IMG/VR virus record: IMGVR_UViG_3300032285_004073
Location: 112,808 to 176,807 of that record
DNA: 64,000 bases
Strand: one strand, 5' to 3'
Source of the DNA: a virus
Position 1 is the first letter of the stretch, and every line of letters begins with the position of its first letter. This document shows, in pieces, positions 5,482-37,553 of the stretch. Position numbers and translations under genes: made by a program. The notes below the pieces were generated by a model, which saw nothing but the letters and a program-made list of their open reading frames with translations, made no database searches and was not told where the DNA came from.

Positions 5482-5487
5482 ATTTGT

Positions 5488-6501: not shown

Positions 6502-6507
6502 TAGACA

Positions 6508-6957: not shown

Positions 6958-6968
6958 TATTATTTCTG

Positions 6969-7448: not shown

Positions 7449-7449
7449 G

Positions 7450-7477: not shown

Positions 7478-7483
7478 ATAGCA

Positions 7484-7660
7484 ATGACAACGAAAATACT
7501 TATTGAAAACGGTGGAGAATTTCATATTCCCCATGAAAAAGTTGCAGAATTGATTAATTGGTTAAATCACGCTCAGGCAATTCGCACGACACCAAAAACA
7601 GAGCAAGTCAAAGAAATTATTAACAATCAATTTACTGGAAAAGAATTGATTAATGGTTAA
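7484..7660 (+). CDS. Small unknown protein (58 aa)
   Basis: The short frame encodes MTTKILIENGGEFHIPHEKV and continues with AELINWLNHAQAIRTT. It is a complete gene between a plausible promoter and the dUTPase gene, whose ATG is 9 nt downstream. No domain was recognised. The regular alternation of strand and helix, and its place at the head of the dut/clamp-loader run, support a real gene. Confidence 0.6.
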   Translation: MTTKILIENGGEFHIPHEKVAELINWLNHAQAIRTTPKTEQVKEIINNQFTGKELING

Positions 7661-7669
7661 AATACCTTT

Positions 7670-9057: not shown

Positions 9058-9617
9058 GCGTAACGTTTTTCAAATGCTCCAGAAGCTGGAATAGAAGTAT
9101 TTTTAGTAGGTAAAGATTGATCTTTCGGTCTATTGCCTAAAGCCCCAAAATCATTTTTTAATTCCTCCGGTTTAGACCCAATGGGTTGTTCATATTTATT
9201 AGGAACACCTTGGACCGGTGGTAAATTATTACCAAAACGCAATACTTCAATATATTTTAAATCTCCAGGAACCTCAAATTCATTAAATTCTGTAGGATAT
9301 TGAACAGTTCGAGGATCACATTTTAAAACTAATACAACATTATTAGAACCGGCAATACTATTTGCATCTTTAGCATTAGCATTATTGGAATTGCCATTTA
9401 CTTCACTAATAAAGAAAAAGGTATCAGGGTTTTGTTGTAAAATGTTTTGAATCCAAGAATGGAACAATTCATCTGTTTCATATCTTTGTTTATAGAAATC
9501 AGACTTAAAAAACTCTGGTCTGAGTTTTACTGGTGTTCCGGTGCGAAAACCTCCGTTTGTATAGTGGGCAAAGGCTCTTTCACATAAGGTTTCGAATTTA
9601 TTGAATTTTTGACTCAT
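9054..9617 (-). CDS. Unknown conserved phage protein (187 aa)
   Basis: I cannot assign a function. The N-terminus FETLCERAFAHYTNGGFRTG, then TPVKLRPEFF, looks like a conserved phage family seen near head and baseplate genes. The C-terminal third is Pro/Asn-rich and probably disordered (PIGSKPEELKNDFGALGNRP). No membrane segment or signal is visible. It is divergent from the gp25-like gene, with a 37-nt gap that carries a CTAAATAT late-like box on the plus strand. Confidence 0.55.
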   Translation of the reverse strand: MSQKFNKFETLCERAFAHYTNGGFRTGTPVKLRPEFFKSDFYKQRYETDELFHSWIQNILQQNPDTFFFISEVNGNSNNANAKDANSIAGSNNVVLVLKCDPRTVQYPTEFNEFEVPGDLKYIEVLRFGNNLPPVQGVPNKYEQPIGSKPEELKNDFGALGNRPKDQSLPTKNTSIPASGAFEKRYA

Positions 9618-9654
9618 AGATATTGTATGTTAGACCTAAATATTTACCTCCGAC

Positions 9655-10161
9655 ATGGCAACTATTCACATAGATAATTTAATTAACCCTCGTCAAGTTA
9701 ATTCAAAGGCTACAGTTTTGACTCAACCTAATAAACCAACTGTAGCTGTTTATACAGATTTACACTTAGATTTATCCGAAATTTATAATATTGGAATAGG
9801 AACAAATCCACAAAAATCTAATGATATTAAAGTAGATAATGATGCAGCTGCTATAAAAAATTCTTTATATAATATTTTTACAACTATTCCCGGACAAAAA
9901 ATATTAAATCCTTCTTTTGGTTGTAATCTTAATCAATTTGTATTTGAAGAAGTATCTGAAATTAAAGGTAAAATAATAGGTGATACTATTTTAAATGCTA
10001 TTAATGTCTATGAACCCAGAGTTCAAGTCCTAAATATACAAGTATATCCTTTACCAGATCAACTGATGTATTACATTATTATGTCATATCAAATGGTTGG
10101 GATAGCTAGCACATTTTCAACGCAAATACAAATATTTCCAAATAATATCTTAATAGTATGA
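9655..10161 (+). CDS. Baseplate wedge protein, gp25-like
   Basis: The 168-aa protein (T4 gp25 is 132 aa) has the GPW/gp25 core: AAIKNSLYNIFTTIPGQKIL, NPSFGCNLNQFVFE, and YEPRVQVLNIQVYP. The T4 equivalents are SIKNSLLGIITTRKG, FDPEFGCDLSDQLFE and NYEPRIDKL. Gp25 sits at the sheath-baseplate junction and starts sheath assembly; it is conserved in contractile systems generally. The extra N-terminal 35 residues are not in T4. It overlaps the gp6 gene by 4 nt (ATGA). Confidence 0.9.
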   Translation: MATIHIDNLINPRQVNSKATVLTQPNKPTVAVYTDLHLDLSEIYNIGIGTNPQKSNDIKVDNDAAAIKNSLYNIFTTIPGQKILNPSFGCNLNQFVFEEVSEIKGKIIGDTILNAINVYEPRVQVLNIQVYPLPDQLMYYIIMSYQMVGIASTFSTQIQIFPNNILIV

Positions 10162-11957
10162 GTAACATCCCTTCCACACCAAATGATTATGTAGCCTTTG
10201 ATGCTACTAATATTAGCGATTTAATAATCAATCGTTTAAATCAAGGTCAGGTATTCACTGATCAAAATTATCAGGGATCTAATATGTCTGCTATTATAGA
10301 CATTATTAGTTATTCTTTTAGTACCTTATTATTTTATCTTAATAAAACAGCTTCAGAAAGTCTTTTTTCAGAAGCTCAGGTGTATGAAAACATGAATAGA
10401 ATTGTTAAACTTTTAAATTATAATCCTCTTGGTAGAATTACACAAAACGTACCTTATACTTTAAACTCTTCATCTTCCTTACCAGCTGGGAACTATATAA
10501 TCCCTCGTTACAGTTATATAAAAGTAGGAGCTGATACGTATTCATTTAATACAGACATAGCTTTTACAAATTCAGCAAACGGAGTAATTGAATTACAAAA
10601 TGTAAATTCTGATTTTTTCCTTTACCAAGGCCAATTTCAAGAATATCCTATATATTCGGCTCAAGGAATTAATAATGAAATACTTTATATTAGCTTGGGA
10701 TCTGACACTTATGTAGACCATTTTAATTTATTTGTTTATGTTAAAGATGTAAACACCGGATTATGGACTCAATGGAAACAAACTCCTAATTTATTTTTAA
10801 ATAAATCCACAGATAAAAATTATGAAATAAGATTTAATGCAAATAAAAATTATGAAATTAAATTTGGTGATAATATTAACGGATCAGCATTAAATGATGG
10901 CGACAAAGTCTTGGTATATTATTTAAATATAAATCCAAACGCTACAGCATTAGCAGCCAATACATTAAACAAATTACCAATTGCTCTCTATAATAGTGTA
11001 AATTACAATCAAATTTTAAATAACACTATTTCTAACCCAACATATATAATACCTCAAAATTATTTAAAATATGTAACTATTAATAATGATTATCCTTCTA
11101 ATCCTTATTCTGAAGAGGAAAGCGTTGATAGCATAAGAAATAACGCACCTAAAAATTTTAGTTTCCAACAAAGATTGGTCACAGCTAATGATTTTCAATC
11201 GTATATAAATTCAAATTATGCTCATTTATTTGCCAATAGTTCCGTAGTTAATAATGACGATTATTTAAGTGGCCATATAAAATATCTATATAACATAGGT
11301 ATAGATTCTCCGCAATCTGATAATAATATTTTATACAGCCAAATTAAATTTGCGAATAGTTGCAATTTTAATAATGTATACGTTTATCTTGTTCCTAAAA
11401 ATTCCACACAACAATACGTAGCAGCTTCGCAAAAGGAATTTATAATATCTGAACTACAAGAAAAAAAGGTTTTAACATCAGAAGTTGTGATTATAGATCC
11501 GGTTTATATGGCTTTAGATTTCTATGCCAAATCACCTTATTCTAAACCTTCAACTAATGACATTAATAATAGTAAACTTTTAATTTACAAACAATCTCAT
11601 AGTAGAAGATCTCCAGCTGGGATTCAAGCTGATGTAATAGCTTTAATTAAAAAGACATTTAATAATCAGACATCGACATTAGGTCAAATGATTGATTTGC
11701 ATAAATTGACAAATGATATTTTAAATATTGATGGAGTAGATCATATTCAAACATATAGAAGTGATACAGATTCTTATGCAGAAGGTATTTCCCTTTTAGT
11801 TTGGAATAATTCTTATCCTCAATTAGACGTTTATACAACATCTCAAAATATACAATTACAATACTTTCAATTTCCAGTATTTAATAACATAAACAATTTA
11901 ATTAATAGAATTCAAATTGTTGATAACAGTGGTGTAATTCAAGTTTCGGATTACTAA
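10158..11957 (+). CDS. Baseplate wedge protein, gp6-like (Baseplate_J)
   Basis: The 599-aa protein (T4 gp6 is 660 aa) starts in the T4-like way: DATNISDLIINRLNQGQVFT, then MSAIIDIISYSFSTLLFYLN. The C-terminal half has the J-protein features, with a basic RRSPAGIQADVIALIKKTF and the later VDHIQTYR. Gp6 dimers link wedges into the inner baseplate ring. The ATGA overlap with the gp25-like gene suggests coupled translation, and the order gp25-gp6 is standard for contractile tails. Confidence 0.88.
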   Translation: MSNIPSTPNDYVAFDATNISDLIINRLNQGQVFTDQNYQGSNMSAIIDIISYSFSTLLFYLNKTASESLFSEAQVYENMNRIVKLLNYNPLGRITQNVPYTLNSSSSLPAGNYIIPRYSYIKVGADTYSFNTDIAFTNSANGVIELQNVNSDFFLYQGQFQEYPIYSAQGINNEILYISLGSDTYVDHFNLFVYVKDVNTGLWTQWKQTPNLFLNKSTDKNYEIRFNANKNYEIKFGDNINGSALNDGDKVLVYYLNINPNATALAANTLNKLPIALYNSVNYNQILNNTISNPTYIIPQNYLKYVTINNDYPSNPYSEEESVDSIRNNAPKNFSFQQRLVTANDFQSYINSNYAHLFANSSVVNNDDYLSGHIKYLYNIGIDSPQSDNNILYSQIKFANSCNFNNVYVYLVPKNSTQQYVAASQKEFIISELQEKKVLTSEVVIIDPVYMALDFYAKSPYSKPSTNDINNSKLLIYKQSHSRRSPAGIQADVIALIKKTFNNQTSTLGQMIDLHKLTNDILNIDGVDHIQTYRSDTDSYAEGISLLVWNNSYPQLDVYTTSQNIQLQYFQFPVFNNINNLINRIQIVDNSGVIQVSDY

Positions 11958-11962: not shown

Positions 11963-14900
11963 ATGCAAGCTACTCAGGATCCATTAATATTAAACGAATC
12001 AATTTATTTTGATTATTCCCCTCCTCCTACTTTTTCTGGGCATTATAATAGGCATCCTTTTAGAATTCACATAACATCTTCTCATAGCGATCAACATATT
12101 ATTTCTTTAGATGCAAAATATTCAAGATCTTACAACCCTCAACCTAATCCTAATAAATGGTCTTTTTTAAGACCTGAATATAGATTTTTAGATTTAAGTG
12201 GCAATAAAATTAATTACATAACCACTCAAGATACACCATTTTATATTGGTTCAGACGGTAATTTAAATAATGTTAGCGGAACCTTTATTGGTGTTAGTGG
12301 GTTTGCGGAATTTTATTTTATAGATGATATTTATAATTTTGACTTAGCCATAAACAATCAACCTTATACTACTATTATAGCTACTCTACAAACAAGTGGT
12401 ATAAATTATTTTTTCAATAACAATGAATATATTTCTACCTCATATGCCAATAGTTTAGCAACAGCATATCAACCTCATATTTTTTATTATCGAAATCCAG
12501 ATTATATAAAAATATCAGAAAATGGCGGTAGAGATTTTATTAACCCAAGATGGTCTGCCACAACACAACCAATTGTGTTTACTCTTAATTGGAATGGAAA
12601 TTATATCTACAATGATGTAAACATACCAACCTATAATGAACCTTATAATTTTTGTCATTATTTCCCCAATTCTCAAAATCAACAAATACAAATTAAAGCT
12701 AATACAGTTGGCGTAAGTTCCAATTTTAATGATAATCTAGTAATATCCTATAGTAATAAAGATGGTTATCGTTCTCAGAGTTATTGTAAGACATATTTTA
12801 ATATACCCAATAGTCAAACATCTCTCGGAGCTTATATTACAGCATCTGTTAATTTTGATTCTGGTCTAGATTTTACTGGAAATGCGTTTAGTCCCAAGAT
12901 TTGGATATCAAATCCTAATGCTGGTACAGTGACTATTGCTGAGTATAATGACCCTAGCATTTTTAATACTACAGATCCTAACTTTACATCGACTCAATTT
13001 AAAAATTTTAATGTACCTATTGTTATAAATCCAGATTATACCAAAGATAATTTTTCCACAATAGGATTTCATGGCATTAATAGTATAGCAGTTTTACCTC
13101 CTCCGGATTTTAAAGCATGGGCTTGTGACGGTGAATTAAATTACCTTTACAAATTTTCCACAGAGGGAAGTATAATTTCTGCAATTGATATTAACCAAAT
13201 AGTAAAAACACAAAAATTAGGTTTCTTTGTAGAAAATCAAGTTTCTCCAGCTTCTATTACATTAGATAGCAATCTTAATATTTGGATGACTTTATATGAT
13301 ACAGCATCTGTTTTAAAATTAGATCCTAATGGAAATTTCTTATTTGCTTTAAACCCATTATCATCCATCAATTATACACTTCCTCCTAATATAAATTATA
13401 ATTGGTATCTCTACAATGAAATGCAGCCATTATCTGGTGAGGTGCAAAACTTTATTGAACCTACCTATGTTGAAACAGATTTAAACAATAATATCTGGGT
13501 AACATATTCCAATTACGCTAGTGGATTTTTAATAAAATATGATACCAATGGCAATTTACTTAAAACTATTAGTTATCCAGTTCTTTCAAGTCCACAAGAT
13601 TTAGTAGTAGATAATGCAAATAATGTATGGGTTGCATTATCTAATAACTCTGGTGACACTTTAGGCACTTTGGAAAAAAGAAATTCCTTTGGAGTATTAC
13701 TAAGCTCCTTTGGAAATATTACTGGATTGAATAATTTGACTTTAGATTTAAATCAAAATATTTGGTTCACATATTCATATTCTAGAATAGCAACTATAGA
13801 TAATAACACCGCAAATATAACAACAATTAATGTATCAGATTATGATAATACACCTTTAGTAATTCCGAGAGACAACAATTCTCAAATATTTTATTCCTCA
13901 TCACCTCAGACCAAAATAGTATCCAATAGTATTAGTAACATCAACAGAATTATTTATAGCCTTTCAGATGTACCTGCAACAACACCAAGTGGAACTATTG
14001 CCAATTCCTCTTATACAACAGCTAGCCAACAAATTTTAGCAGCAAAGGCTCAGATTCAGCAAGCAGTTATTAACTATGCGGTGACTAATTACCCAAATGC
14101 CATGAGTAATAATCCAACTCTTACAGCGTATTGCTACAGAGATACTGGATTTATAGTAGATGCATTAGCTGCGGACATAGCCAATAATACAAATCATCGA
14201 TCAATTGAAGTGGGTAATTTTTACTACAAAGGTGTAACAAAAAATGTTAATGTACCTTATGGACAATTAATTCTGCCTTCTTACGAATTATCAGCAACAA
14301 TAAATTCTATTAATTACATTGCATCTTATATTAATTCCAATGTAGTTACAGATACTTCTAGAAAAACTGATGTGACATCACGTATGGCTGATGTAGTATA
14401 CCCTCTTCAAACCGGAGGAGCTTTAAAGGCATATTCTCCTGCTGGATCACCTACTACAGACGATATTAATATAGCCAATCTTATAGCTGCTAATAGATCT
14501 GCCCTTCAAGATAAAGTTTCTTATTATGTAATACAAAAGGGATATTTGTTTGATAGTGCTCTTTTACAAATTTGTAAAAGAGATGTTGGGTTGATTGTAG
14601 ATGCTATATACAATGATCTAGTATCCGGAGTCAATGCTAGGTCTATAGAATACGGCTTGGCATATTGGAATGGAAGCACTACAAGATTGCCAGACAGTCT
14701 TGTACCTAATCATAAAGAAAAAACAACAGATACATTTAATTATCTTAACACTTGTATTAAAGATCTTTTAGTTGCTAATGGGTATTTACAAGACACAACA
14801 CCTTCTCCTTACAATATATATGCAGATAAAGGATTAACTGTACCAGATGAATATACATCAGAAACAGCTTTGGAAGGTATAGCTGCCGATTATAAGGGCA

Positions 14901-15952
14901 ATATATATGTTATAAATTCTGTTGAAAATCAAGTATATATGTTTAATTCAACAACTAAGAATTTTACAAATAAATTTTATATTAATCCTCAAGGATTTAA
15001 TTTCTTCTACCAGAACAATATTAATAGCATAGATTATAATGTTTGGACTAAATCAGCTCAAGCTTATGGTGACTGGACTGGGTTTAGATGGATTAATAAA
15101 TATTATAAATATCAAAACTCAAGAATAATATCTTTAACTGGAAGATCTACTAATTTAGATTTTTACGGAAATCATGCGTTTGATGTTTTTAAAGTTAATG
15201 AAAATTTTGACATGGCTGGTCAAATGAAATCTTTAGCTTTTATGCCGGTTTTACAAGATAGCCCAGTTTTCTTTGATAATTTCTTAGGATCTATTTTCGG
15301 TAAAGCTCCTTTTAATCATAATGATCTAGGAATAGAAAGTTATGAAAAGATTGCAAATTTCTTACCCAATAATGTAGATATAGACACTTGTGGTATAGAC
15401 GAACTTTACAACTTAGCCAATTCAGTAAATCAACATGATGGTGATGACTTTACTTTAACCTATCCAAATGAAATTAAAAGATTAATGAATTTAGCTTCCA
15501 TAAATCAATCTATACTTTGGGGTACAACTTCCAAAAATCAAAATTACTTTAAGTCTCCGTCCACAGATGGAGTCTTGAATAGGGGTAAATTGTTAACTAA
15601 CAATTACACAGTTTCTGCTGGAACTCCTGTAATATTAAATACTAGATCACTTAACAGTTATGATCTAATACCCACAGGACCTATCAACGGTTCAACCAAT
15701 TATCCCTTATCTACATTAATTTCTTACATAGGTTTAGATCCACTTAATTGGGAAACATATTACAACATATATGAATTTATACCTGGATTTAGTAAAACGC
15801 TAACTGAAGGTATTATAGATTGGAATAATCCTCAAACAACCATTACTCAAAGTCAATCTTCTCATTATAATTGGGTTGGAAATGAACAAACGTTAGATAA
15901 ATTATTTTCATATAATTTATATAACGGATTAGGATTACTAAAGAATTATTAA
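11963..15952 (+). CDS. Giant baseplate protein with NHL-type propeller, possible gp7 counterpart
   Basis: The 1329-aa protein follows gp6, where T4 has gp7 (1032 aa). Roughly residues 370-650 form NHL/lyase-like propeller blades, with repeated patterns such as ITLDSNLNIWMTLYDTASVL and LVVDNANNVWVALS. Two copies of a phage module follow: YCYRDTGFIVDALAADI (about 720) and ICKRDVGLIVDAIYNDL (about 865), each ending in a (S/N)RSIE motif. The C-terminal 350 residues begin near DFYGNHAFDVFKVNENFDM and look like a conserved attachment region. I infer a wedge protein enlarged by a propeller; the gp7 equivalence is positional only. Confidence 0.6.
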   Translation: MQATQDPLILNESIYFDYSPPPTFSGHYNRHPFRIHITSSHSDQHIISLDAKYSRSYNPQPNPNKWSFLRPEYRFLDLSGNKINYITTQDTPFYIGSDGNLNNVSGTFIGVSGFAEFYFIDDIYNFDLAINNQPYTTIIATLQTSGINYFFNNNEYISTSYANSLATAYQPHIFYYRNPDYIKISENGGRDFINPRWSATTQPIVFTLNWNGNYIYNDVNIPTYNEPYNFCHYFPNSQNQQIQIKANTVGVSSNFNDNLVISYSNKDGYRSQSYCKTYFNIPNSQTSLGAYITASVNFDSGLDFTGNAFSPKIWISNPNAGTVTIAEYNDPSIFNTTDPNFTSTQFKNFNVPIVINPDYTKDNFSTIGFHGINSIAVLPPPDFKAWACDGELNYLYKFSTEGSIISAIDINQIVKTQKLGFFVENQVSPASITLDSNLNIWMTLYDTASVLKLDPNGNFLFALNPLSSINYTLPPNINYNWYLYNEMQPLSGEVQNFIEPTYVETDLNNNIWVTYSNYASGFLIKYDTNGNLLKTISYPVLSSPQDLVVDNANNVWVALSNNSGDTLGTLEKRNSFGVLLSSFGNITGLNNLTLDLNQNIWFTYSYSRIATIDNNTANITTINVSDYDNTPLVIPRDNNSQIFYSSSPQTKIVSNSISNINRIIYSLSDVPATTPSGTIANSSYTTASQQILAAKAQIQQAVINYAVTNYPNAMSNNPTLTAYCYRDTGFIVDALAADIANNTNHRSIEVGNFYYKGVTKNVNVPYGQLILPSYELSATINSINYIASYINSNVVTDTSRKTDVTSRMADVVYPLQTGGALKAYSPAGSPTTDDINIANLIAANRSALQDKVSYYVIQKGYLFDSALLQICKRDVGLIVDAIYNDLVSGVNARSIEYGLAYWNGSTTRLPDSLVPNHKEKTTDTFNYLNTCIKDLLVANGYLQDTTPSPYNIYADKGLTVPDEYTSETALEGIAADYKGNIYVINSVENQVYMFNSTTKNFTNKFYINPQGFNFFYQNNINSIDYNVWTKSAQAYGDWTGFRWINKYYKYQNSRIISLTGRSTNLDFYGNHAFDVFKVNENFDMAGQMKSLAFMPVLQDSPVFFDNFLGSIFGKAPFNHNDLGIESYEKIANFLPNNVDIDTCGIDELYNLANSVNQHDGDDFTLTYPNEIKRLMNLASINQSILWGTTSKNQNYFKSPSTDGVLNRGKLLTNNYTVSAGTPVILNTRSLNSYDLIPTGPINGSTNYPLSTLISYIGLDPLNWETYYNIYEFIPGFSKTLTEGIIDWNNPQTTITQSQSSHYNWVGNEQTLDKLFSYNLYNGLGLLKNY

Positions 15953-18900: not shown

Positions 18901-20527
18901 AACATATTTTTATGCAGTTGATCCCATCGATTTTACAACACCTTTAGAATTTAATGTATTTCCACAATTTGGATGGATAGGTAATGATAATCAACTAACT
19001 ATCCTTGACGAGAATAACTATACTTTAATCAATAATCCATCAGCTTATGATAATACTGTAGGACAAACACAAAGTCTTTATTTATCTGCCAATAAAAATT
19101 ATTTTACAAAATACAATTATCAAAGTCAAACAAGCCCAGAAATAATAACCCTACCTTCTTATTTCGGATTAACAAATATAGGATATACACCAAGATCCTT
19201 AGAAGTATTTAATTACGGATTAATGATAGGACTTACGGCTTTTAATAATGATGTTTATCCGGAAATAATGGGTGTAAATTATTATGATCTTGTTAATATA
19301 AATAATGGTTATAATGTAATTGTTAACCAATTTAATATTACATCCCAAACTTTATCCGCCAAAAGCTTTTATACATCAAATTATATATACGATGAATATA
19401 ATAATCTCTATAATTCCATATTTGGCAATCTTTCTTCACTTTTAGTATATTGGAAACTAAATGAAGAAAGCGGTAATCGCTACGATTCAACTCCAAATGG
19501 ATACACTTTAATAGATGTAAATCCGTTTACTCCGTCCGGACAAGGTTTAATAGATAAAGGAATTATAGGAGATGGTTCTGGTTATTTAACTACTGCAAAC
19601 ACCATACCTCTTAGCGGTGATTTTACAATTAATTATTGGGTGAAACCAGAAAAAAATACAACTGGTAATTTCCAATGTTTTGCTGGTTCTGATAATGAAT
19701 TAAATTTTAATGTTCATTCTCGAGGTATATATTATGGTACCTGTAACAATTTTGTGAAAGCTTCTAAATTTATTGAAGTATCAAATGATTGGCATATGGC
19801 TACTCTCACCAGATCCATATCATCTGGTTTAGCAAATATATATTTAGACGGAAATTTAGTGGCAACAAACACATCTGATTTTACAGATTATACAGCTTAT
19901 TTTGGATTGTTGGCCACGTATGACGGTCAGTATGTAGACTCTGCCAATAATTCAATGTTGGATGAATTTAGTATATATAATCAGGTTATTAATATAAATC
20001 AAATATCAAATTTATATAATTATGGTTTAGGCATCACCTACCCATTAACAGATGATAATAGTTATACAACCTTATTAAATTTATCTTCTCTTATATCTCG
20101 CAATAATAACGGCAACAAATTCTTATGTGCTCCTGTTATTGTACCTTATAATGATTTGTATTTTTCATTTACGGTTAAAAATCTTTCCTTGGATCTTAAT
20201 AAAGAAAATACTATTTCAGTCACTCAAACCACTAAATCTAATGGTCCAGCGGTTATAGTCGGTGGGTCTATAACCTATTATCTTTCTAGTCAATATTGGG
20301 TTGAATCTAACACCATACCCTATGCTGATGGCACCTATGATATATTCAATATTACCTTAGGTGATCCTTTTATACCATTACAAAGTGGAGCTGAAGGTTT
20401 AGATAATTTTTATTTATATGCTATCCCTGATTTTTATCAACAGATACCACCTAGTGTTTTTGATTTAGCAAAAATAAATCAAGGATATAAAGGAAATACA
20501 AATATTTGGAGTTTAATAAATCCATGA
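15983..20527 (+). CDS. Giant virion protein (1514 aa) with LamG-like domain
   Basis: This is a long Asn/Ser/Tyr-rich beta protein with no transmembrane segments. Near residues 1150-1350 it has a concanavalin-A/LamG domain: LLVYWKLNEESGNRYDS, SGDFTINYWVKPEKN, DWHMATLTRS and YLDGNLVAT, ending in MLDEFSIYNQVIN. LamG folds bind glycans or proteins, so a cell-surface contact role is likely. Other parts look like repeated immunoglobulin-like or PKD-like strands, but I cannot delimit them by eye. The gene overlaps the next by 4 nt (ATGA). Its place after the gp6 and putative gp7 genes suggests a baseplate or fibre component. Confidence 0.6.
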   Translation: MSFTPTLAYNIQGSGNYPSENYISYPLQSYFIANLGPLKFYNGLKYRKKPYSDVANFYLNSPIFNSFFTYSNAVTSQYSDITDPTQANILVESYNTIDFGDWISTPSITLNTSNIRKTYNIPSEFNLFYTTLNQNTDLSYGYLLYPSKLFLNPVSLTQNGNNWNLTTNINVALSSVIGIESNYIEQDAADYHINTYLKNTPTLLSLGSAGLNSSYSLFFDLCANRTRTHRPIINFTQGYKPTYFTSILEPNSILNPDSLVVTFSAACSNPTFSITEQIISQDEPDVWKYDETTHFNNTFVILSSYDIKTKSPVQTFQLYQTITPGGANYPLIDSKNCVLSATLFLNNSNIRYSNPLSKSTYNVHHTTDSILGISYIADCGLFKNNDPISGSLTINSSPASFKTSVPINNVASNQTIVWTTPYPPHYYSYKTKLANSGAYLDSNSLNFYLYSSNVPTSDNNYNTNQSSYYVLLSSYITSDHNILSYSLDAVPNDLIRFLPVNLDPLIAPNLVCSYGPYTSLVAGSAIQTYNLINSPWVPVSAGDCLRIDYPYGMYGQTPLSIRSSLSSKVAGQLDAFNATNFVLAPDYQQNNGFAIDLQVLSEDYNQITLSVSNNVSLSSWPYIDLTYKNICWYYTSDDVLPDLNISLNIADSTGNILSSIQPYQVIPFNNLTWNVNISGYGPNTLTIYVSSSDETITQPSFIDTNPSLFSYFVERQFAVTPLIELDNLNIDRTISLQAQLPINNTIVNIPSAYQDSAMYWTWSFDDITDPSLQPISANYNVLSSDNVTIISKDYTHSTPGPISLLSSINLVITPPQGSRAQNLHNIKVVAHSDIMNPSVIGSYSFTVDDFPSTDIFNADFTTRYNNAEAIVLGNTSSGHNTITRKGNASPGTNLYFKLIPSDVASNLANNNGELTWYYNNLAIDSNSDNSLNFDLSLSATPTIQNNISAASIALKLTNSFANGWTSAHNVSAITYFYAVDPIDFTTPLEFNVFPQFGWIGNDNQLTILDENNYTLINNPSAYDNTVGQTQSLYLSANKNYFTKYNYQSQTSPEIITLPSYFGLTNIGYTPRSLEVFNYGLMIGLTAFNNDVYPEIMGVNYYDLVNINNGYNVIVNQFNITSQTLSAKSFYTSNYIYDEYNNLYNSIFGNLSSLLVYWKLNEESGNRYDSTPNGYTLIDVNPFTPSGQGLIDKGIIGDGSGYLTTANTIPLSGDFTINYWVKPEKNTTGNFQCFAGSDNELNFNVHSRGIYYGTCNNFVKASKFIEVSNDWHMATLTRSISSGLANIYLDGNLVATNTSDFTDYTAYFGLLATYDGQYVDSANNSMLDEFSIYNQVININQISNLYNYGLGITYPLTDDNSYTTLLNLSSLISRNNNGNKFLCAPVIVPYNDLYFSFTVKNLSLDLNKENTISVTQTTKSNGPAVIVGGSITYYLSSQYWVESNTIPYADGTYDIFNITLGDPFIPLQSGAEGLDNFYLYAIPDFYQQIPPSVFDLAKINQGYKGNTNIWSLINP

Positions 20528-22536
20528 GCGTTTATACATCACCAGCAATTCAATTAACAACATATGCAGACCAAACTACGCAGATATATATGTCTACTGT
20601 TTATGCATTAGTAAGTTCTCAAGTTTTTGTAGAATATAAAAATCCATTTTTAAACAACAACAATCCCAGTTCTTATGTGTTACAATATATTACAGATTTT
20701 GGAGAAGGAGATGTAATTTACTCCGACCCCTCAGACAAGGTATATTATAGTTATAAGAATCCAGGAACTTATTATGTATCATATTCTGCCGTATTATATT
20801 CTAACACGGACAACACAACTTCCATTACACCTGCAAATTCGTTAGTACCATTTGTAATAGAAGCCTCCTGGAAACCTTTTAATGCCAATGAAATAAGATA
20901 TGCCAAAGATCTTATATTAAAATTTCCTTATAATTTAAATCAAATACAAATACAGCCTAATGAATGGGGTGTCAAAGATATTTTTAATACTGCTATAACT
21001 CGTTTACAAGATAATTTAAATTATTTATTATATAACACTAAAACTTTAAACACAAACACTCCAACAGAATATATTGGTTGGTTAGGAAACAATTCCAATA
21101 GTAGAGGAAGTGGTATAAAATGGAACACACAAACATATAACCCTCTCTATTTAAACAACGCATCGTTAGCAACCACACAAGGATCTTCTTATTTTAATAA
21201 TTTAAAAGACAGTGTAGAAATTTTAGATCGTATTTATGTGCTGGACGATACAAGTTTTAGAGCCTTTTATTCTTCAGCTGTACCAACAGAAATAAAATTT
21301 TCTAATACTCAACAAATAGCCTCACTATTAGTAAATCCTTCATCATTAGATTCTAATGACTCCGGTGACACGGTTTATATATCGGATCCCCTAAAGAATA
21401 TAGTATATAAATTCAACATAGATATTACTAATAATGAAATTAACGTACAATTATTTACAGGAGGTTTTGGCGGAGTTGCAGATCATGATAAATTTAATTC
21501 CCCGGTTCAAGTATATTATTTTAAAGAAAATGTATACGTTTTAGATTATAACAACAAATGTGTTAAACAATACAATAAAGATTTAAACTGGATATATACC
21601 TATTATTGTGACGCATTTGAATCAGACCAACCAGCAAGTGTTACAGTCAATCCATCAACATCGGATGTTTATATTTTAAGTGAATCAGCTAATGTGTATA
21701 TATTTAAAAATTTAAATAGCAATCCATACAATTCATTTAGTGCTTTAGAAGCAAAAGACGGGACAAATTTAAACAAAATTATTTTTGATGATTCCGGGGA
21801 TTTTTTCTACATATTATCAGTTAGTAATATATACAAATATTCCTATATTAATACATTTATAAATAAACTTAATATAGAAAACAACCCTTCCATTAATTAT
21901 ATTAGCATTAATAAATCCACCAACAAATCATTTTTAATTACTAGTATTCATTCTATACTAAAAATACAAGATGTATTAGAGACATTTCAATTAGGCGGTG
22001 GATTACCTTACAATTATTGGACAAAAGAACAATTACTGGTTTCAGAAGATGAATTTTCATCCGATATTAATTATAATCGCTCTTTAATTAGAATGGCTCA
22101 AAATGTCAAAACTTTTAGAGATACACTAAATGCTCAAATGGTTTTAGTACAAGCAGATATTCCTTACATTTCTTGGGTTCCTATTGATGTTTCCAATCAA
22201 CCGCTTTTAGACTCTGATGTTGAAAACGAAACATTGGGTGTTGGTGTTAATGAATTACACGTACCCTCGGTTTTCAATAAAGAATTAGACAAAATATATA
22301 CTTCTTTATCCACTCTATTAAATTTTTTAAATATTAATAATGCTGTACCCGAATCTCAATGTTCTGGTAAATTTTGTTGGTCTTGGAAAGCATTATCAAC
22401 TTATAATATAACTTTACCTGTAGTTAGAACTTGTGATATGAATCCTACAAGCTACAAAGAATTATTAGGCGCGTTTCCTGTGGGTTATGCTCCTAGTAAA
22501 ACTTGGGGTGAAGCTATCTCAAATTGTTGTAATTAA
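20524..22536 (+). CDS. Baseplate/tail protein with PKD domain and NHL-type propeller
   Basis: The 670-aa protein starts at ATG 20524, overlapping the previous stop. Residues about 40-95 form a PKD-type domain (ITDFGEGDVIYSD ... YYSYKNPGTYYVSYSAV). Residues about 230-480 carry propeller-like blades (IYVLDDTSF, VYISDPLKNIVYKF, VYVLDYNNKCVKQY, VYILSESANVYIF). The C-terminal region contains Cys-rich SQCSGKFCWSWKAL. Shared architecture with the neighbours argues for a tail-surface protein. No T4 counterpart can be named with confidence. Confidence 0.55.
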   Translation: MSVYTSPAIQLTTYADQTTQIYMSTVYALVSSQVFVEYKNPFLNNNNPSSYVLQYITDFGEGDVIYSDPSDKVYYSYKNPGTYYVSYSAVLYSNTDNTTSITPANSLVPFVIEASWKPFNANEIRYAKDLILKFPYNLNQIQIQPNEWGVKDIFNTAITRLQDNLNYLLYNTKTLNTNTPTEYIGWLGNNSNSRGSGIKWNTQTYNPLYLNNASLATTQGSSYFNNLKDSVEILDRIYVLDDTSFRAFYSSAVPTEIKFSNTQQIASLLVNPSSLDSNDSGDTVYISDPLKNIVYKFNIDITNNEINVQLFTGGFGGVADHDKFNSPVQVYYFKENVYVLDYNNKCVKQYNKDLNWIYTYYCDAFESDQPASVTVNPSTSDVYILSESANVYIFKNLNSNPYNSFSALEAKDGTNLNKIIFDDSGDFFYILSVSNIYKYSYINTFINKLNIENNPSINYISINKSTNKSFLITSIHSILKIQDVLETFQLGGGLPYNYWTKEQLLVSEDEFSSDINYNRSLIRMAQNVKTFRDTLNAQMVLVQADIPYISWVPIDVSNQPLLDSDVENETLGVGVNELHVPSVFNKELDKIYTSLSTLLNFLNINNAVPESQCSGKFCWSWKALSTYNITLPVVRTCDMNPTSYKELLGAFPVGYAPSKTWGEAISNCCN

Positions 22537-22627: not shown

Positions 22628-25600
22628 ATGTCTAATAGATTTCACTCAAAATTTCACCGTTCTAATCACCACACTTATACAAATAGTGCGAACCCCGATG
22701 CAGGCCATGACCCTATAGCCAGTCCGGATTCACCTTTTTTAGGTGATTTTGTTTTAAAAGGAGGATTAAGTGCTTTAGTACCTTCAGGAAGCAAATACTC
22801 CGCTACCTTTTTAGGAGCTGGTGTTGGTGTAGGCACAATCACACCTAATACAAGCTTAACAGTTGTTGGATCTATTAGTGCTTCTAATAATATTATAGTT
22901 GGTTATAATAACCAGGCAGTTGATACATCTAGTATTGGTGGTGGTTTTAATAATTCTATCAGTAGTCCATATTCTTATATAGGAGATGGTTCTAATAATT
23001 CTATTAGTAATTCTTATTCTTACATTGGTGGTGGTAATAATAATAATATTTCTGGAAGATATTCTTTCATAGCTGCAGGGTCTTCTAATTATACCAATTT
23101 TCCAAATACGTTTATTTTAGGATCTGGGTTATCTGCTAATCAAGCGAATTTTACATTTGTTAATAATTTAAGTACACCCGGATCGGTCATTGCTAATAGT
23201 ATATCATCTAGATTTATATATTTGTTACATAGCAATCCTAATGATGGTATTAATCCAGTTGTATTTTTAGGTGAAAACGGTAATGGGTCTTTATCTGGTT
23301 TTAATACATCATATGATGAAATACAAAACAAATATTTCATATCTACATTTTTTGGCGACGGCTCTATAGTTCCATATACAACAGCCTTTTTAATAGACCA
23401 AAGTGGTAATGTGGGTATTAATACAAATAGCCCTAACAATAAATTAACTGTTAATGGATCTATCAGTGGTTTAGGCAATCTTTATATTAATAGCAATGAA
23501 TACATTACAGGTTCATCTTATGTTTCTGGTAATCAACTTTTAGCAGGATCCTCTTATATTTCCGGGTCTCAATATCTTTCTGGAGCTTATTCTGTTAAAG
23601 GACATATATATGCATCTGGATCTCAATATCTTTCAGGTTCATTATTCACTGGTAATAATGTAAGCATTAATACAACTAATCAAACCAATGCTTTAACGGT
23701 AAAGGGTTCTATTAGTGCTTCAGATACATTATATGGTAATACCATTAATTGTGCTACTTTAAATGCTACTACTTTAAATGCTACTAATGAATTTGTAACA
23801 AATAAAACCACAGTATATTTTTCATCATCTACTGGAAATTCTTTAATATTAGGAAATCAATTTAATCTCACTCCATTGACATTATCCGGTAATGCAGTTT
23901 TATTAAACGCCTTTAATTCATCAACTCTTAATCCGGTGTTTTATATGACATCAAATGGATATGTTGGTATCAATACCAATAATCCTTCTGCCAACCTTAC
24001 TGTAGTTGGAAACATAAATGCTTCTAGTGATATAAGCACAAGTGGATCTTTATTAGCTTCTAAACCAATTGTAGTTTCTACTTCACCTACATCCAATTTA
24101 AATATAGCTCCATTATCTGCGACAGGTTCTGCGACAGGTTCTGTTTATAGTTCTATACAAAATATTGTAGCAGGTGTTAGTGCTAGCACAGATTATACAA
24201 TGTACAATGATCAAGGCAATTATTTGGATATTGGTATTAATAGCTCTCAATACAACGGAAATCTTTATTATCCTAAATTCAACATAGTAGGTCCTGGTGA
24301 TTCTTATATATTTAATACAGCTAACAACATTGTTATGGGTACAGGATCTTCTTCAGGAAATCTTTTATTCTTTACAGGAGGCACTTCTTCAAGCAATGAA
24401 AGAATGAGAATTACCAATAGTGGTAATATTGCTATTGGAACTACAACAACTGATTCTAATTCCGTTCTTACCATTAAAGGTGATGTTTCTATTAACGGAA
24501 ATCTTAGTTACAACAACAGTAATAATGGTCCGGTTATTAACGGATCTGTAAGAAACATTATCTTAGGTTCTGCTGGACAGGGATACTCTTCCGCTCCAAC
24601 AATAACCATAGATCCTCCCACAGATGTTTTAGACAATAATATTCAAGCAACTGCAACGTGTACTATTAATAATGGCGCTATTAACTCTATAACTATAACT
24701 AATCCGGGTCGTGGTTATATAACACATCCTAATATTACTATTTCTGGAGGAGGATCTCCGACTCAACCCGCAGTGATGTGGGCTATGGCAGATGTTAGAG
24801 CTACATCTAACCCTAGAGGCAGATCTAGCTATGCATCAACAGTTTTATTTTCAGATGGTAGGTTATTTAGTGCTGGGTATAATAACTCAATTCCTAACGG
24901 ATATTCTGTATCCGGTACTAGTTATGTTAATCCTGTAAACGTACCTATATATACTAGCTCTGATACCAATCCTTCATATTTTGTAATACCAGAAACTTAT
25001 TCATTAAACACTCCAGCTGGGTATCAAAATATACCAGCAGGTAGACCCGTTGAATACTGGAATACAGGTGATCATTTATATGTATTAGACAGTAATGGAA
25101 ATCTTTGGAGCGGAGGTGAAAATGCCAACGGAGAATTAGGATTAGGAAATAATACATCTCAATACATTTTAACTCGAATAATATTCAATCAAAACAGTTC
25201 GACATACGGACAATTACTTAATACTAATAATCAAATTGTGAGATTTTCAGTTTCTAAGGATGCCGACAGATCCGGCAGAACATCTTGTATAGCTCTTGCA
25301 GCTAATGGCGCTATATATACTTGGGGTTATAATGGATGGGGTCAATTAGGAATAGTTAATTCCAAAGGAACATTAAATACAGCTGCTCATAATTCACCGG
25401 TTTGTCTTAACAATTATGTAGGCGGAAACACTGGAGTAGGAGGTGGAACGTCTATAACAGTACCCTCAGCACCATCAGCTCCTTACGTATTTCCTAAACA
25501 ATATAAAAACGTTTACATGATAGGAGATGGATATACAAGCTGTTCTTTTATATTAAAAAATGATGGTAGTGTACTAGCCGCGGGATATAACGCATTTGGT

Positions 25601-26410
25601 CAACTTGGTATCGGTAATACAACTAACCCTCCTTCATTTACACCAGTATTATCCGCAGCAAATGCCCCAATAGGTAATGTAAAAGAAATTCACGGTAATA
25701 GTTATGGTGGAGGTTATATAAGCTGTACATATTTCTTATGTAATGATGGATCCCTTTGGTCTACAGGTCATAATAGTTATGGTGCTCTTGGACTCGGTGA
25801 TACTACTCAAAGAGTGTATGCTACTAAAATTACAGCTTTATCAAATTATAATATAACTAAATTTAGGACTATGACTAGACAAGAAGATTATGGTTTTTGT
25901 GTTGCTAGTGATGGTACTAATATATGGACCTGGGGCAGAAACGATTTTGGTCAATTAGGAAAAGGTGTAGCTAATAATACTGCCAATCCGACTCCTTTCT
26001 TAGTTAATACTGTTCCTTTAAATTATTCCAATACCCCCAACACTACAACTTATGTAGGTAATGCCGCTACTACTTGGAGTGGAATTACTATTAAAGATAT
26101 AGCCATTGGTCAAGCATGTTTTGCCATATTAACAAACAATGGTAAGGTTTACAGTTGTGGATATAATAAAGTAGGACAATTAGGATTATCTAATGGTCTA
26201 GACTATGCTGCGTTTTTAACTCATGTTAATATACCGACAGATAATGCAGCTTCTATAGCGATTTGTGGACCCACTGTAAATCAATTTTTACAGATTATCA
26301 CATCTTCCGGCAAAATCTATGCTAGTGGTTATAATGGCCACGGAGAATTGGGCACTGGTGATACAGGAGGTTATTATTACCTACCCACTCAAGTTTACAA
26401 AGGGTTATAA
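22628..26410 (+). CDS. Tail fibre with YadA-like repeats and C-terminal RCC1 propeller
   Basis: The 1260-aa protein has three parts. The N-terminal part has YadA-head-like repeats (SYIGDGSNNSISNSY, SYIGGGNNNNISGRY) and fibre repeats SGSQYLSG. The middle has a phage-fibre G-x-GY...P-x-ITI pair (GQGYSSAPTITI, GRGYITHPNITI). From about residue 720 there are at least seven RCC1 repeats: LWSGGENANGELGLG, IYTWGYNGWGQLGI, VLAAGYNAFGQLGIG, LWSTGHNSYGALGLG, IWTWGRNDFGQLGKG, VYSCGYNKVGQLGLS and IYASGYNGHGELGTG. A weaker one (LFSAGYNNSIPNG) precedes them. Seven blades make a closed RCC1 beta-propeller, here probably a receptor-binding head. An AAGGA ribosome site precedes the ATG. Confidence 0.75.
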   Translation: MSNRFHSKFHRSNHHTYTNSANPDAGHDPIASPDSPFLGDFVLKGGLSALVPSGSKYSATFLGAGVGVGTITPNTSLTVVGSISASNNIIVGYNNQAVDTSSIGGGFNNSISSPYSYIGDGSNNSISNSYSYIGGGNNNNISGRYSFIAAGSSNYTNFPNTFILGSGLSANQANFTFVNNLSTPGSVIANSISSRFIYLLHSNPNDGINPVVFLGENGNGSLSGFNTSYDEIQNKYFISTFFGDGSIVPYTTAFLIDQSGNVGINTNSPNNKLTVNGSISGLGNLYINSNEYITGSSYVSGNQLLAGSSYISGSQYLSGAYSVKGHIYASGSQYLSGSLFTGNNVSINTTNQTNALTVKGSISASDTLYGNTINCATLNATTLNATNEFVTNKTTVYFSSSTGNSLILGNQFNLTPLTLSGNAVLLNAFNSSTLNPVFYMTSNGYVGINTNNPSANLTVVGNINASSDISTSGSLLASKPIVVSTSPTSNLNIAPLSATGSATGSVYSSIQNIVAGVSASTDYTMYNDQGNYLDIGINSSQYNGNLYYPKFNIVGPGDSYIFNTANNIVMGTGSSSGNLLFFTGGTSSSNERMRITNSGNIAIGTTTTDSNSVLTIKGDVSINGNLSYNNSNNGPVINGSVRNIILGSAGQGYSSAPTITIDPPTDVLDNNIQATATCTINNGAINSITITNPGRGYITHPNITISGGGSPTQPAVMWAMADVRATSNPRGRSSYASTVLFSDGRLFSAGYNNSIPNGYSVSGTSYVNPVNVPIYTSSDTNPSYFVIPETYSLNTPAGYQNIPAGRPVEYWNTGDHLYVLDSNGNLWSGGENANGELGLGNNTSQYILTRIIFNQNSSTYGQLLNTNNQIVRFSVSKDADRSGRTSCIALAANGAIYTWGYNGWGQLGIVNSKGTLNTAAHNSPVCLNNYVGGNTGVGGGTSITVPSAPSAPYVFPKQYKNVYMIGDGYTSCSFILKNDGSVLAAGYNAFGQLGIGNTTNPPSFTPVLSAANAPIGNVKEIHGNSYGGGYISCTYFLCNDGSLWSTGHNSYGALGLGDTTQRVYATKITALSNYNITKFRTMTRQEDYGFCVASDGTNIWTWGRNDFGQLGKGVANNTANPTPFLVNTVPLNYSNTPNTTTYVGNAATTWSGITIKDIAIGQACFAILTNNGKVYSCGYNKVGQLGLSNGLDYAAFLTHVNIPTDNAASIAICGPTVNQFLQIITSSGKIYASGYNGHGELGTGDTGGYYYLPTQVYKGL

Positions 26411-26428: not shown

Positions 26429-27079
26429 ATGTCTTTTTATAGTTCTACCATATTATTATCAAACTCTAATACAATAAATGTTAGTAATTATGCACCTTTT
26501 TATTTAAGTGTAGATCCTTCTGGAGTTACAACTCCTAATTTAGTTAGACAAATAGATTATATTTGGGGAGACGGTACTTCTCATTCTCAAGTATTAAATC
26601 CGAACCCAACGAGTAATGGTGATCCCCGAAATTATATACAAAATAAACAATTTCTTTCCAAGGATCCGGTTTTATCAGTTTATTTAATAAAGGTTAATGT
26701 TTACACATTAGGGTCTTCAGATCCTATCACTTTTACAATTAACTTAAATTTACAAAATCCTCAATTAGAATCTAATAATATTTTTAATGAATTTCACCTT
26801 GTTAAAACAAAAATGTTTGGACCTGATAACCAGATGCTATATACATTTGAAACTCAAAATCCTAATAACATAATGATGTCTGTCGTTAATTGGAAAAATA
26901 AATCAGCGCCATTATCACTACCTAAATCACCTTTTGTGATTGAAAATAGACCTTATCAACTCACTCAACCTTTAGGATTATCTTCAACTCAACCAGCCAA
27001 AGACATAACAATTGAAAATCCTGCAGATACACCACCCAATCCGGATTTTGGAACCTCAATAAAACGCTTATATCCTTAA
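26429..27079 (+). CDS. Unknown tail-module protein (216 aa)
   Basis: No family was recognised. The early segment YAPFYLSVDPSG ... IDYIWGDGTSHSQVL contains WGDG, typical of PKD-type domains (W-x-D-G/G-D-G), and later strands (VYLIKVNVYTLGSSDPITFT) fit a beta-sandwich. The C-terminus is Pro-rich (ENPADTPPNPDFG). Its position between fibre genes, with only one base to the next start, suggests a small structural or adaptor protein. Confidence 0.5.
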   Translation: MSFYSSTILLSNSNTINVSNYAPFYLSVDPSGVTTPNLVRQIDYIWGDGTSHSQVLNPNPTSNGDPRNYIQNKQFLSKDPVLSVYLIKVNVYTLGSSDPITFTINLNLQNPQLESNNIFNEFHLVKTKMFGPDNQMLYTFETQNPNNIMMSVVNWKNKSAPLSLPKSPFVIENRPYQLTQPLGLSSTQPAKDITIENPADTPPNPDFGTSIKRLYP

Positions 27080-33397: not shown

Positions 33398-35203
33398 ATG
33401 GCTATTAATTTTTTAGATAACGTTTGCGTAAACACAACATTAAGTGCAACTTCAATTTGTTCTTCAAATTTCTGTGGAACAACTTTTTGCGGAACAAATT
33501 TCTACGGTAATGGTTGTGGGTTAACTAACTTAAATGTACCACCTACAACGGCAATATATATTCCGGGCACTGGATTAGGATCAATTAAACCTTTATCCGG
33601 ATCTAATACATCATCAGGGTTTTATTCCATTGTATTAGGAGGTGTCAATAATTCATCTTTAAGTTCTTTTAATGCTATAGGTAATGGATGTTACAATTAC
33701 ACGGAAGGTCGTTATTCCTTGGTAGGAAATGGTTCTTCTAATTGTATTACGCAAAACAATCTTATCTTGATAGGCTCAACTATATTAAACGGATTTGACA
33801 ATTCTATTAATAATAGCACTGGAGGCAATAATAGCATTAATAACACTATTATTGCAGGTTCCAATAACCTTATAGATACTTCTTGCTTCTCTTCCTCTAT
33901 AAATGGTTGTGGACAAAAAATAGGTGCTTATGGATGTTATGCCACTCTTATTAATGGATGTTTAAATAATATAGGAACTGATAAACATTCAACTATAGCT
34001 AACGGATGTTGTAATCAAACTTTAAACGGAAATAACAATTTCATAGGAGCTGGTGTTTGTAATTTGATGAACGGAGCACAATGCTCGACTATATTAAATG
34101 GTTTGAGAAATTGTGTAGGTACCACTTATCTATCTTTAGCAAATGGATTTATTGCCGGAGGTTGTTATAACACTATATGTAGTGGAACTTGCAATTCTTA
34201 CATTTTAGGATGTAATATTACTGCAGGAACCTCTAATACCACCTTCGTAAATAATCTTAGCTCCGGTGGATCAATTTGTAGTACAACATTATATGTCAAT
34301 GGTACACAAATAAATCCAGTTTCTCCGTATGCTTTTAGTAATACCGGAACTAATAACATTGTTACAGCTTGTACTACTCAAAATAATTGTTTTTCACAAG
34401 ATGCTCAATTAAACATCTGTAATTCAGTTATAGGTAGTGGATATAATAATACTATTGCTACTCGTAATCCTAATAATAGTATTAACTCCATGTGTAACTC
34501 CGTTATCAACGGAGGAAGTAATAATTGCATTTCTGCTTATCAAAGCTCCATGCTCAATAATGTTATTGGTGGTGGTGACAATAACAAAATATATAATTCT
34601 AATTATGCATTTATAGCAAATGGAAATTACAATTCTGTAACAGCCAATAACGTTTTTGTCTTAGGTTCTGGATTAAGTGCCAATCAATCTAATTTCACTT
34701 ATGTTAATAATTTAAGTTCTCAGGGCGTTATAACGACCCCCACTATAAGTGCTACTAATACATTTTTAACTAATATAACTTCAACAAATATTGTTGCTAA
34801 TAATATAACAGCCAATAGTAATTTATATGTTAATGGTAATATTACTACCTCAGGTAATATATTTGGTCTTAATCCGTCACCTTTTACTCCTATATCAGGA
34901 AATACCTATAGTCTTCAATTGTCAGACAATTCTTCTACATTCGGTGCTCTCAATGCCGGAGGGTTGATATTATCAATTTTAGGTAATATTAGTTACCCAA
35001 CAGGATATCAAATTAGTATGATTCAATTAGGTGGTATGACTGCACAGGTTTATGTCTCTGGAGGTTATGTCTCTGGAGTTGGAAGTATAAATGTTAATTC
35101 TTCTAATGGATATCTTAAGACAAGCTCTCAATATTCAGCTGCTAGTTTAATTTATACAGGTGCTACTGCAGGTTGGGTATTATACGGCGATCTCTCTAAT
35201 TAA
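33398..35203 (+). CDS. Second YadA-like repeat fibre protein (601 aa)
   Basis: The protein has the same repeat style as the preceding fibre (YSIVLGGVNNSSLSSF, YSLVGNGSSNCITQN, TIIAGSNNLIDTSC) but degenerate. The LGSGLSANQSNFTYVNNLSS segment is nearly identical to segments in the proteins at 22628 and 29946. The N-terminus has closely spaced Cys (SICSSNFCGTTFCGTNFYG). The C-terminal domain (SLQLSDNSSTFGALNAGGLI ... GYQISMIQLGGMTAQVY) is distinct and may be the receptor-facing tip. Trimeric fibre assembly is inferred. Confidence 0.65.
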   Translation: MAINFLDNVCVNTTLSATSICSSNFCGTTFCGTNFYGNGCGLTNLNVPPTTAIYIPGTGLGSIKPLSGSNTSSGFYSIVLGGVNNSSLSSFNAIGNGCYNYTEGRYSLVGNGSSNCITQNNLILIGSTILNGFDNSINNSTGGNNSINNTIIAGSNNLIDTSCFSSSINGCGQKIGAYGCYATLINGCLNNIGTDKHSTIANGCCNQTLNGNNNFIGAGVCNLMNGAQCSTILNGLRNCVGTTYLSLANGFIAGGCYNTICSGTCNSYILGCNITAGTSNTTFVNNLSSGGSICSTTLYVNGTQINPVSPYAFSNTGTNNIVTACTTQNNCFSQDAQLNICNSVIGSGYNNTIATRNPNNSINSMCNSVINGGSNNCISAYQSSMLNNVIGGGDNNKIYNSNYAFIANGNYNSVTANNVFVLGSGLSANQSNFTYVNNLSSQGVITTPTISATNTFLTNITSTNIVANNITANSNLYVNGNITTSGNIFGLNPSPFTPISGNTYSLQLSDNSSTFGALNAGGLILSILGNISYPTGYQISMIQLGGMTAQVYVSGGYVSGVGSINVNSSNGYLKTSSQYSAASLIYTGATAGWVLYGDLSN

Positions 35204-35204
35204 T

Positions 35205-37553
35205 ATGATTGCTAATACTATAGGAACTCTTAGTAAATTAAATAGACAGGTAAAAAATACAGTTCCTACAATAGATGTATATTCTGGTACATTTTACCAA
35301 GTTCCTTTTGAACGAGCCACTTTTGATATATCCCTAACTAATTTAATTGATGATATACAATTAACATATTTTAAATCAGCAGATTATGGCAGCACTGGGG
35401 TTAATTACATATTATATTCCCCAGATTTAAAATATGTTTATTTAATAAACAACACCCACGTCATTCAAGCCGATAATTCTAACAATAAGGGACCTTTAGC
35501 TTCGGTATATGGCGACTCGGTAAAATTTAAAGTAATTAAATCCTGGAATATTGTCGGTGAAGCAATAGGATCTCATTGTCAGTATGGTGGTACGGCTTGT
35601 ATAACCTCTGATGGGCGTTACTTATACGTTCCAACTTACAACCCGTCATCAGCCCCAGGGTCCCGAGCAGGTATTAATATAATAGATACCGTAACTAATA
35701 CTCAAAATTCTCTTGCACAAGGTTATAGAAATTTTTCTACTTTCTTGTCTAAAGACGAAAAATTCTTATTTGTATCTGACCAAGGACTAAATGGTCTTTA
35801 TGCATTTGACATTTCAACAGATAAGATGAATCCTAGGTATTTAACTGGAGGATCCTTATATGATCCCAATATTACTAATAATAATACTAATAGTGGTATT
35901 ATATCCCCTGATAATAAAAATATTTACGTTTCAAGTAATACTCTAGGTGTATTCAAGGTTCCTTTATCTACGTATAATAATAGTGTAGAATTTAAACAAC
36001 CAATTATTAGGTACACGGCCGTGAATGGAGACAATATTAGCAATGGTAATCCAGAGGGATTGAGTATTTCACCAGATGGCAATATATTATATATACCGAA
36101 TTATTCCGTTACTAATGACTCTAAAAAACACTTAGTTCACGTTTTTAATTTATCCTCTAATACAATAACAGGATATTATAGTTCTAGTGACATCCCCACC
36201 AGTCAACAAAAGCCAAGAAACAGTTTTTTAGATCCTACATATACTTATTATTATGATTATAGTTTTCCGTTAACAAATAGCCCGTACGTACTAGTTAGGC
36301 CAATTTCTGATTTTGGTAACGTAAGGGCTGTTCCAGTGTGTTTTGATGGTGCAGGAACAAACTACACACGAACTATAGGAATACCTCCTATAGTCCCTGC
36401 ATCAGCTACTAATTTAAATTTAACCTATAACCGTTCTACAAAATCTCTCACAGCAACCTGGGTTGGATCACCCTATAGTGGCTTTACAGCACCATATAAC
36501 TATTCTCAAACAGCACAATATACTTTAAATTTAACTTCTCCTATACAAACATTAACAACCACAACAACAGCAACAACAGCATTTTTTTCTAATGTTTCTT
36601 CAGACAATGTTTTTAAGGCTTCTCTTTTTTCTTTTAATTCTGTAGGAAAATCATCTAACTATTATCAATTTTTTAGTACAGCATCTTATACTATTACAGC
36701 TTTTGTGCTTGGTGGCGGTGGTAGTGGTGGTGATCAACCATCTTCTGCTAATAGTGGTGGTGGTGGTGGTGGTGCAGCTGTTGCTGCAACTGCATTCCTT
36801 ACTAGTGGCCTTACCTATAATGTTACAGTAGGTAAAGGGGGTGTAGCCGGAGCTTCTTATGGGGGAGTAGAAGACGGTGGATACAGTGCTTTCTCAAATT
36901 TCTATTATTTATCAGCTGATGGAGGTGGAGCCGGGGGATCCAATACTACACCAGCCCATAGTAAAGGGACTGGAGGAGGTGCTGCTGGTACCTATGAAGA
37001 TGGAACCTCTAATCCTGGGGGCTATGGTATAGCGCCGTTTGGAAGTAACGGAGGAAGTAGCACTATTCATTCTGCTGGTGGTGGTGGTAGTGCTCAAAAC
37101 GCTACAGGAGGTATACAATATAATGCAAATGGTGGAGACGGTACGGCATATGTCGGCGGACAAGGTGCCCACGGTAATAATGCATTTTTGATAGATGCTC
37201 TAAGAGGAGGAACTAAACTTCTTGACCTCGGGCAAGATTTTTATGGAGGTGGAGGTGGAGGTGGAGATTATAATCCACTTAATTCCGGTTATGGAGCCTG
37301 GGGAGGTAATGGAGGCGGGGGTTCCGGTGGATATGGTATATATAATTTAGGATCTTCAGCTGGAGTCAACGGTAAAGGTGGAGGTGGAGGTGCCGGTCAC
37401 AATGGTGGACATGGCGTCGTAAAACTCTTTATACCGACCAAATATTATTCTGGTAAGACTACAGGATCACCAACAGTTACAACCACAACATTTAGTTCAG
37501 ACCCTATTATAGTTTTAACCTATAACTATCCAGGTGGAACTTACACTGCTTAA
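35205..37553 (+). CDS. Tail adhesin: propeller, FnIII-like and glycine-rich tip
   Basis: I start the gene at ATG 35205, two bases after the previous stop, giving 782 aa. The order is: a short V-P-F-E-R-A domain; a YVTN/NHL-like propeller (YLYVPTYNPSSAPGS, NIYVSSNTLGVFKV, ILYIPNYSV); a fibronectin-III-like segment (SATNLNLTYNRSTKSLTATW); then from about residue 505 a glycine-rich domain with GGGG runs and LTYNVTVGKGGV. Such Gly-rich domains occur in phage tip adhesins, where polyglycine-II helices carry variable receptor loops (for example Salmonella phage S16 gp38). Host recognition is the likely job. Confidence 0.65.
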   Translation: MIANTIGTLSKLNRQVKNTVPTIDVYSGTFYQVPFERATFDISLTNLIDDIQLTYFKSADYGSTGVNYILYSPDLKYVYLINNTHVIQADNSNNKGPLASVYGDSVKFKVIKSWNIVGEAIGSHCQYGGTACITSDGRYLYVPTYNPSSAPGSRAGINIIDTVTNTQNSLAQGYRNFSTFLSKDEKFLFVSDQGLNGLYAFDISTDKMNPRYLTGGSLYDPNITNNNTNSGIISPDNKNIYVSSNTLGVFKVPLSTYNNSVEFKQPIIRYTAVNGDNISNGNPEGLSISPDGNILYIPNYSVTNDSKKHLVHVFNLSSNTITGYYSSSDIPTSQQKPRNSFLDPTYTYYYDYSFPLTNSPYVLVRPISDFGNVRAVPVCFDGAGTNYTRTIGIPPIVPASATNLNLTYNRSTKSLTATWVGSPYSGFTAPYNYSQTAQYTLNLTSPIQTLTTTTTATTAFFSNVSSDNVFKASLFSFNSVGKSSNYYQFFSTASYTITAFVLGGGGSGGDQPSSANSGGGGGGAAVAATAFLTSGLTYNVTVGKGGVAGASYGGVEDGGYSAFSNFYYLSADGGGAGGSNTTPAHSKGTGGGAAGTYEDGTSNPGGYGIAPFGSNGGSSTIHSAGGGGSAQNATGGIQYNANGGDGTAYVGGQGAHGNNAFLIDALRGGTKLLDLGQDFYGGGGGGGDYNPLNSGYGAWGGNGGGGSGGYGIYNLGSSAGVNGKGGGGGAGHNGGHGVVKLFIPTKYYSGKTTGSPTVTTTTFSSDPIIVLTYNYPGGTYTA

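Follow-up and report, generated by a model that had tools for sequence, protein, structure and literature searches.

A probable eight-bladed RCC1-type propeller as an exchangeable head on a fibre of a T4-like phage

We focus here on a fibre gene in the window, by which we mean the whole 64,000-nucleotide stretch analysed (C1:112808-176807 of a 176,807-bp virus record), and on the domain at the C-terminus of its product (Table 1). The phage is T4-like, with genes at 1970-11957 for a gp23-type capsid protein, a gp21-type protease, a clamp loader and a baseplate wedge, among which the gp25/gp6-type baseplate genes at 9655-11957 mark the tail locus. Its capsid protein shares 34-36% identity with the best-matching homologues from cyanophages. 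On the plus strand at 51005-52209, a heme oxygenase gene is followed by one for a PcyA-like ferredoxin-dependent bilin reductase, and this adjacent pair suggests a host among the cyanobacteria; psbA was looked for and not found. We regard the phage as probably a cyanophage and infer a freshwater origin. Three plus-strand ORFs of the structural gene cluster (11963-15952, 20506-22536 and 35160-37553) give weak NHL, SGL, SBBP and lactonase-type matches and are possibly further beta-propellers. On the minus strand, a 1574-aa ORF (41552-46276) looks sedolisin (S53)-like by eye in its N-terminal part (E..D and GTSAGAP motifs), a reading that sequence searches of Pfam, NCBIfam and the PDB did not support, and a 1496-aa ORF (46305-50795) carries a von Willebrand A domain (PF13519, E 1.4e-10).

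Table 1. Parts of the fibre gene and its immediate neighbours, in window coordinates
Feature	Position	Strand	Basis or remark
Conserved NHL-like gene upstream of the variable slot	20506..22536	+	
Fibre gene, 1260 aa	22628..26410	+	ORF list, domain searches
Conserved N-terminal anchor, aa 1-50	22628..22777	+	common to 16 viral loci
Shaft, aa 51-639	22778..24544	+	sequence; tblastn against relatives
Short YadA-head-like beta-roll stretch, aa 102-170	22931..23137	+	sequence, by eye
Linker domain, aa 640-715	24545..24772	+	phrog_5342 tail fiber (E 1.4e-14), others
RCC1-type propeller, aa 716-1256	24773..26395	+	Pfam, AlphaFold, L008 replicate, fold search
Long b-c loop, unit 1	24941..25045	+	variable length, mostly low pLDDT
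Long b-c loop, unit 3	25400..25501	+	variable length, mostly low pLDDT
Long b-c loop, unit 6	25997..26089	+	variable length, mostly low pLDDT
Conserved gene downstream of the variable slot	26429..27079	+	

The gene product would be a tail or baseplate fibre of this T4-like phage. Its first 50 residues, of the pattern MSNRFHSKFHRxNHHTY..NPDAGHDPIAS..PF.GDFVL, would fix the fibre to the virion and would be followed by a long, repetitive, beta-structured and presumably trimeric shaft, which contains 'VGINT..PN..LTVNGSIS' segments. Within the shaft, the beta-roll-like stretch has repeats of about 15 residues and is the sole basis for the term 'YadA-type' used in the first-pass annotation; as a family assignment we abandon it, Pfam giving no YadA head or anchor family in the fibre protein at E <= 1. 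The linker, a module frequent in phage fibre and baseplate proteins, forms its own separate strands in the AlphaFold model. The remainder is the RCC1 domain, which matches PF25390 (E 3.2e-52; 178.5 bits against a cut-off of 150), PF00415 (E 2.2e-30; 105.4 bits against 21.7, in seven stretches) and PF13540 (E 7.7e-21), and finds UVR8, HERC and RPGR among PDB sequences. Seven exact G-x-[ND]-x-x-G-x-L-G motifs begin at aa 830, 900, 986, 1047, 1103, 1178 and 1234, whereas none of 20,000 shuffled versions of the C-terminal 649 residues had more than two. The predicted four-strand blades, repeated with the G-x-N-x-x-G-x-L-G loop, begin at aa 716 (nt 24773) and stop at aa 1256 (nt 26395), four residues before the end of the protein, so that the first-pass annotation, which had placed C-terminal RCC1 repeats at 24772-26407, was right about their identity and position and nearly exact about their edges. 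No further ORF of the virus record gives an RCC1 match.

The same annotation described a closed, seven-bladed propeller. A complete propeller is indeed predicted, but the AlphaFold strand list, taken with a degenerate first repeat, gives eight four-strand units rather than seven. The model (single chain; input aa 612-1260 and 13 relatives) has a pTM of 0.84 and a pLDDT of 80-95 for most propeller strands. The strands run c0, d0, seven a-b-c-d sets, a8 and b8 (c0 716-721, d0 736-741, a8 1230-1235, b8 1249-1256), with b4 weakly formed. The eighth blade is predicted to combine the first two with the last two strands, a 2+2 closure that is rare in propellers at large and typical of RCC1-like domains, the named exception (PMC8458387). 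A second model, of the relative L008, has the same strand pattern for each unit included; c0 is absent there and the first unit is of low confidence. In VIA-align alignments, the fold match to UVR8 covers units 2-8 (Z 33.6, rmsd 4.0, 353 residues), while that to HERC2 covers units 1-7 (Z 32.7, rmsd 3.8, 346 residues); since both registers fit seven-bladed structures equally well, all eight units would lie in one wider ring.

Alternatively, the head would have seven blades and a surplus unit, unpacked or degenerate. To our knowledge, every RCC1 structure named among the PDB matches listed is seven-bladed, and we recognised no eight-bladed one among them, though one may still exist. AlphaFold, furthermore, may fit additional blades in different ways (PMC9218822). 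The equal fit of the two registers speaks against this alternative, as does the recurrence of eight units in each of the six related fibre heads looked at, and we consider it unlikely. Counting the a-strand motif by eye gives eight units in each of the divergent relatives L008, L031, L012, L024 and L026; a single-unit HMM, trained on compact 50-aa units, finds seven clear units in the window protein, eight in L008 and fewer in L031 and L012. The fibre head is thus probably an eight-bladed RCC1-type propeller, a count that is based on AlphaFold models built from shallow alignments.

Among six relatives, the b-c loops vary most in length, with a mean SD of 5.6 residues where the other loops have 0.1-1.3; identity is lowest, at 0.16, in the short c-d loops. 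We considered the b-c loops as a receptor face and dropped the idea, as the propeller topology sets them on the side by which the chain comes in and goes out; they may thus look towards the shaft and away from the cell.

The first-pass annotation had proposed a search for the same module swapped among related fibres, and such exchange was found. First of all, scanning with residues 1-198 of the fibre protein shows that its N-terminus is common to 16 viral loci. When 11 complete proteins, those of the window, L008 and L031 among them, are compared pairwise over their first 50 residues, 55 of 55 pairs are homologous, at a mean identity of 74%. C-terminal homology, on the other hand, assessed over the last 150 aa (about 80 aa for proteins of 136-138 aa), is confined to an RCC1 group (the window, L008, L012 and L031; six pairs) and a K1-lyase_C group (L023, L024 and L026; three pairs), while the C-termini of L014, L015, L016 and L017 match no other among the 11. 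At L022, the head at this locus is a Peptidase_S74 domain. Second, the genes 5' of the slot (11963, 15983 and 20506) are conserved in most loci that share the N-terminus, and those 3' of it (26429, 27081 and 27802) in most records that reach far enough; heads thus exchange on a conserved base between conserved flanks. Third, L024 and L026 have a minimal anchor gene of 136-138 aa and bear the RCC1 head on the fibre gene after it. L024 and L025 are 92% identical across 9.1 kb and 77% identical along the shaft of this second fibre gene; past the shaft, L024 ends in the RCC1 head and L025 in an unrelated head that has no Pfam match. L025 also has, 3' of the second fibre gene, a separate RCC1 gene that is open-ended and contains 13 RCC1 stretches (L025:12738-14675). 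The records of L014 and L015 (170 and 226 kb), which carry other heads, gave no RCC1 match.

The closest phage relatives of the fibre head are 40-47% identical to it. A scan of bacterial and archaeal genomes yielded proteins of 24-30% identity and nothing closer, so that no cellular donor can be named. Of the proposal that the head was obtained by domain transfer, transfer between phages stands; a eukaryotic or bacterial donor is conjectural.

A conserved N-terminal end combined with an exchangeable C-terminal head at a tail locus is the arrangement by which phage receptor-binding fibres are recognised, and the conserved end would be the virion-proximal one. Relatives replace the propeller with unrelated heads while retaining the base and the neighbouring genes, and the propeller, which would be distally exposed in such a fibre, most likely binds the host surface. 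A swappable C-terminal receptor-binding head is accordingly the most likely reading, which we hold with some confidence. It upholds the earlier idea of a receptor-binding head as far as C-terminal position and exchange at a conserved fibre locus are concerned, but outward exposure and receptor binding itself are inferred from this architecture. The propeller might also serve within the fibre as a structural or adaptor domain, bound by another protein that bears the true receptor-binding tip. The next two genes (26429 and 27081) are conserved beside the fibre gene and have no assigned function, and the length-variable b-c loops point to the chain-entry side, as such an adaptor might have it. 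An adaptor would be expected to be conserved together with its partner, yet unrelated domains replace the head beside these same conserved neighbours, which makes this arrangement improbable.

RCC1 domains on phage fibres are already known from public databases: Pseudomonas phages Littlefix (tail fibre A0A2K9VHT9) and PollyC (A0A2K9VI36) have, like the window, an RCC1 propeller in a tail-fibre protein, and PHROG 7220, 4219, 16766 and 20500 likewise comprise phage proteins with RCC1 domains. These belong to other phages, have other fibre bases and show distant sequence similarity only. In the literature searched we found no description of RCC1 domains on phage tails or fibres, and a survey of jumbo phages does not mention them. 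The best fold matches to the window propeller (Z 25.8-33.6) are UVR8, HERC1/HERC2, RPGR and RCC1 itself, which share its repeat motif, four-strand blades and 2+2 closure; in structural alignments they are 20-24% identical to it, and they have seven units where the window propeller, borne on a phage fibre, has a predicted eight. A bacterial RCC1-type propeller with a protein target (Z 17.5) is smaller, secreted and stand-alone.

Stand-alone phage RCC1 proteins (phAPEC6, GAP32; L035-L047) share the repeat family with the window fibre and differ from it in their length of about 380 aa, their seven units of some 50 residues each and their lack of a shaft, and, unlike the window, their genes often form tandem arrays. 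Several neighbouring RCC1 genes per viral contig were seen in L035-L039, L043, L047, L053, L054 and L056; many of these genes have products of the size and unit make-up just given, and others are longer. PHROGs files phage RCC1 proteins mostly under DNA metabolism, and for the protein of the jumbo phage phAPEC6 a role in ordering DNA was proposed by analogy to eukaryotic RCC1 (PMC7247149). On that reading, phage RCC1 proteins would condense or spool DNA, and the filing of PHROG 7220, 4219 and 16766 would be right. The window domain, on the other hand, is fused to a fibre shaft within a baseplate and fibre cluster, where S74 and K1-lyase_C heads are its alternatives in relatives; for this fibre, shaft fusion and head exchange thus favour host recognition, and we find DNA condensation very improbable. 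The fibre architecture also casts doubt on the filing itself. We suggest, as a tentative and finely balanced proposal, that a class of eight-bladed RCC1 propellers has come to serve T4-like phages as a mobile head for receptor binding and that the 'DNA-condensing' phage RCC1 families are largely host-recognition heads.

The case for RCC1 as an exchangeable phage fibre head is architectural and comparative, and would set right the 'DNA condensation' label now in wide use. A second gain is a form of the fold with eight blades that can be put to the test, the solved members identified here having, as far as we know, seven. Apart from these two points, the biology is that of ordinary head swapping.
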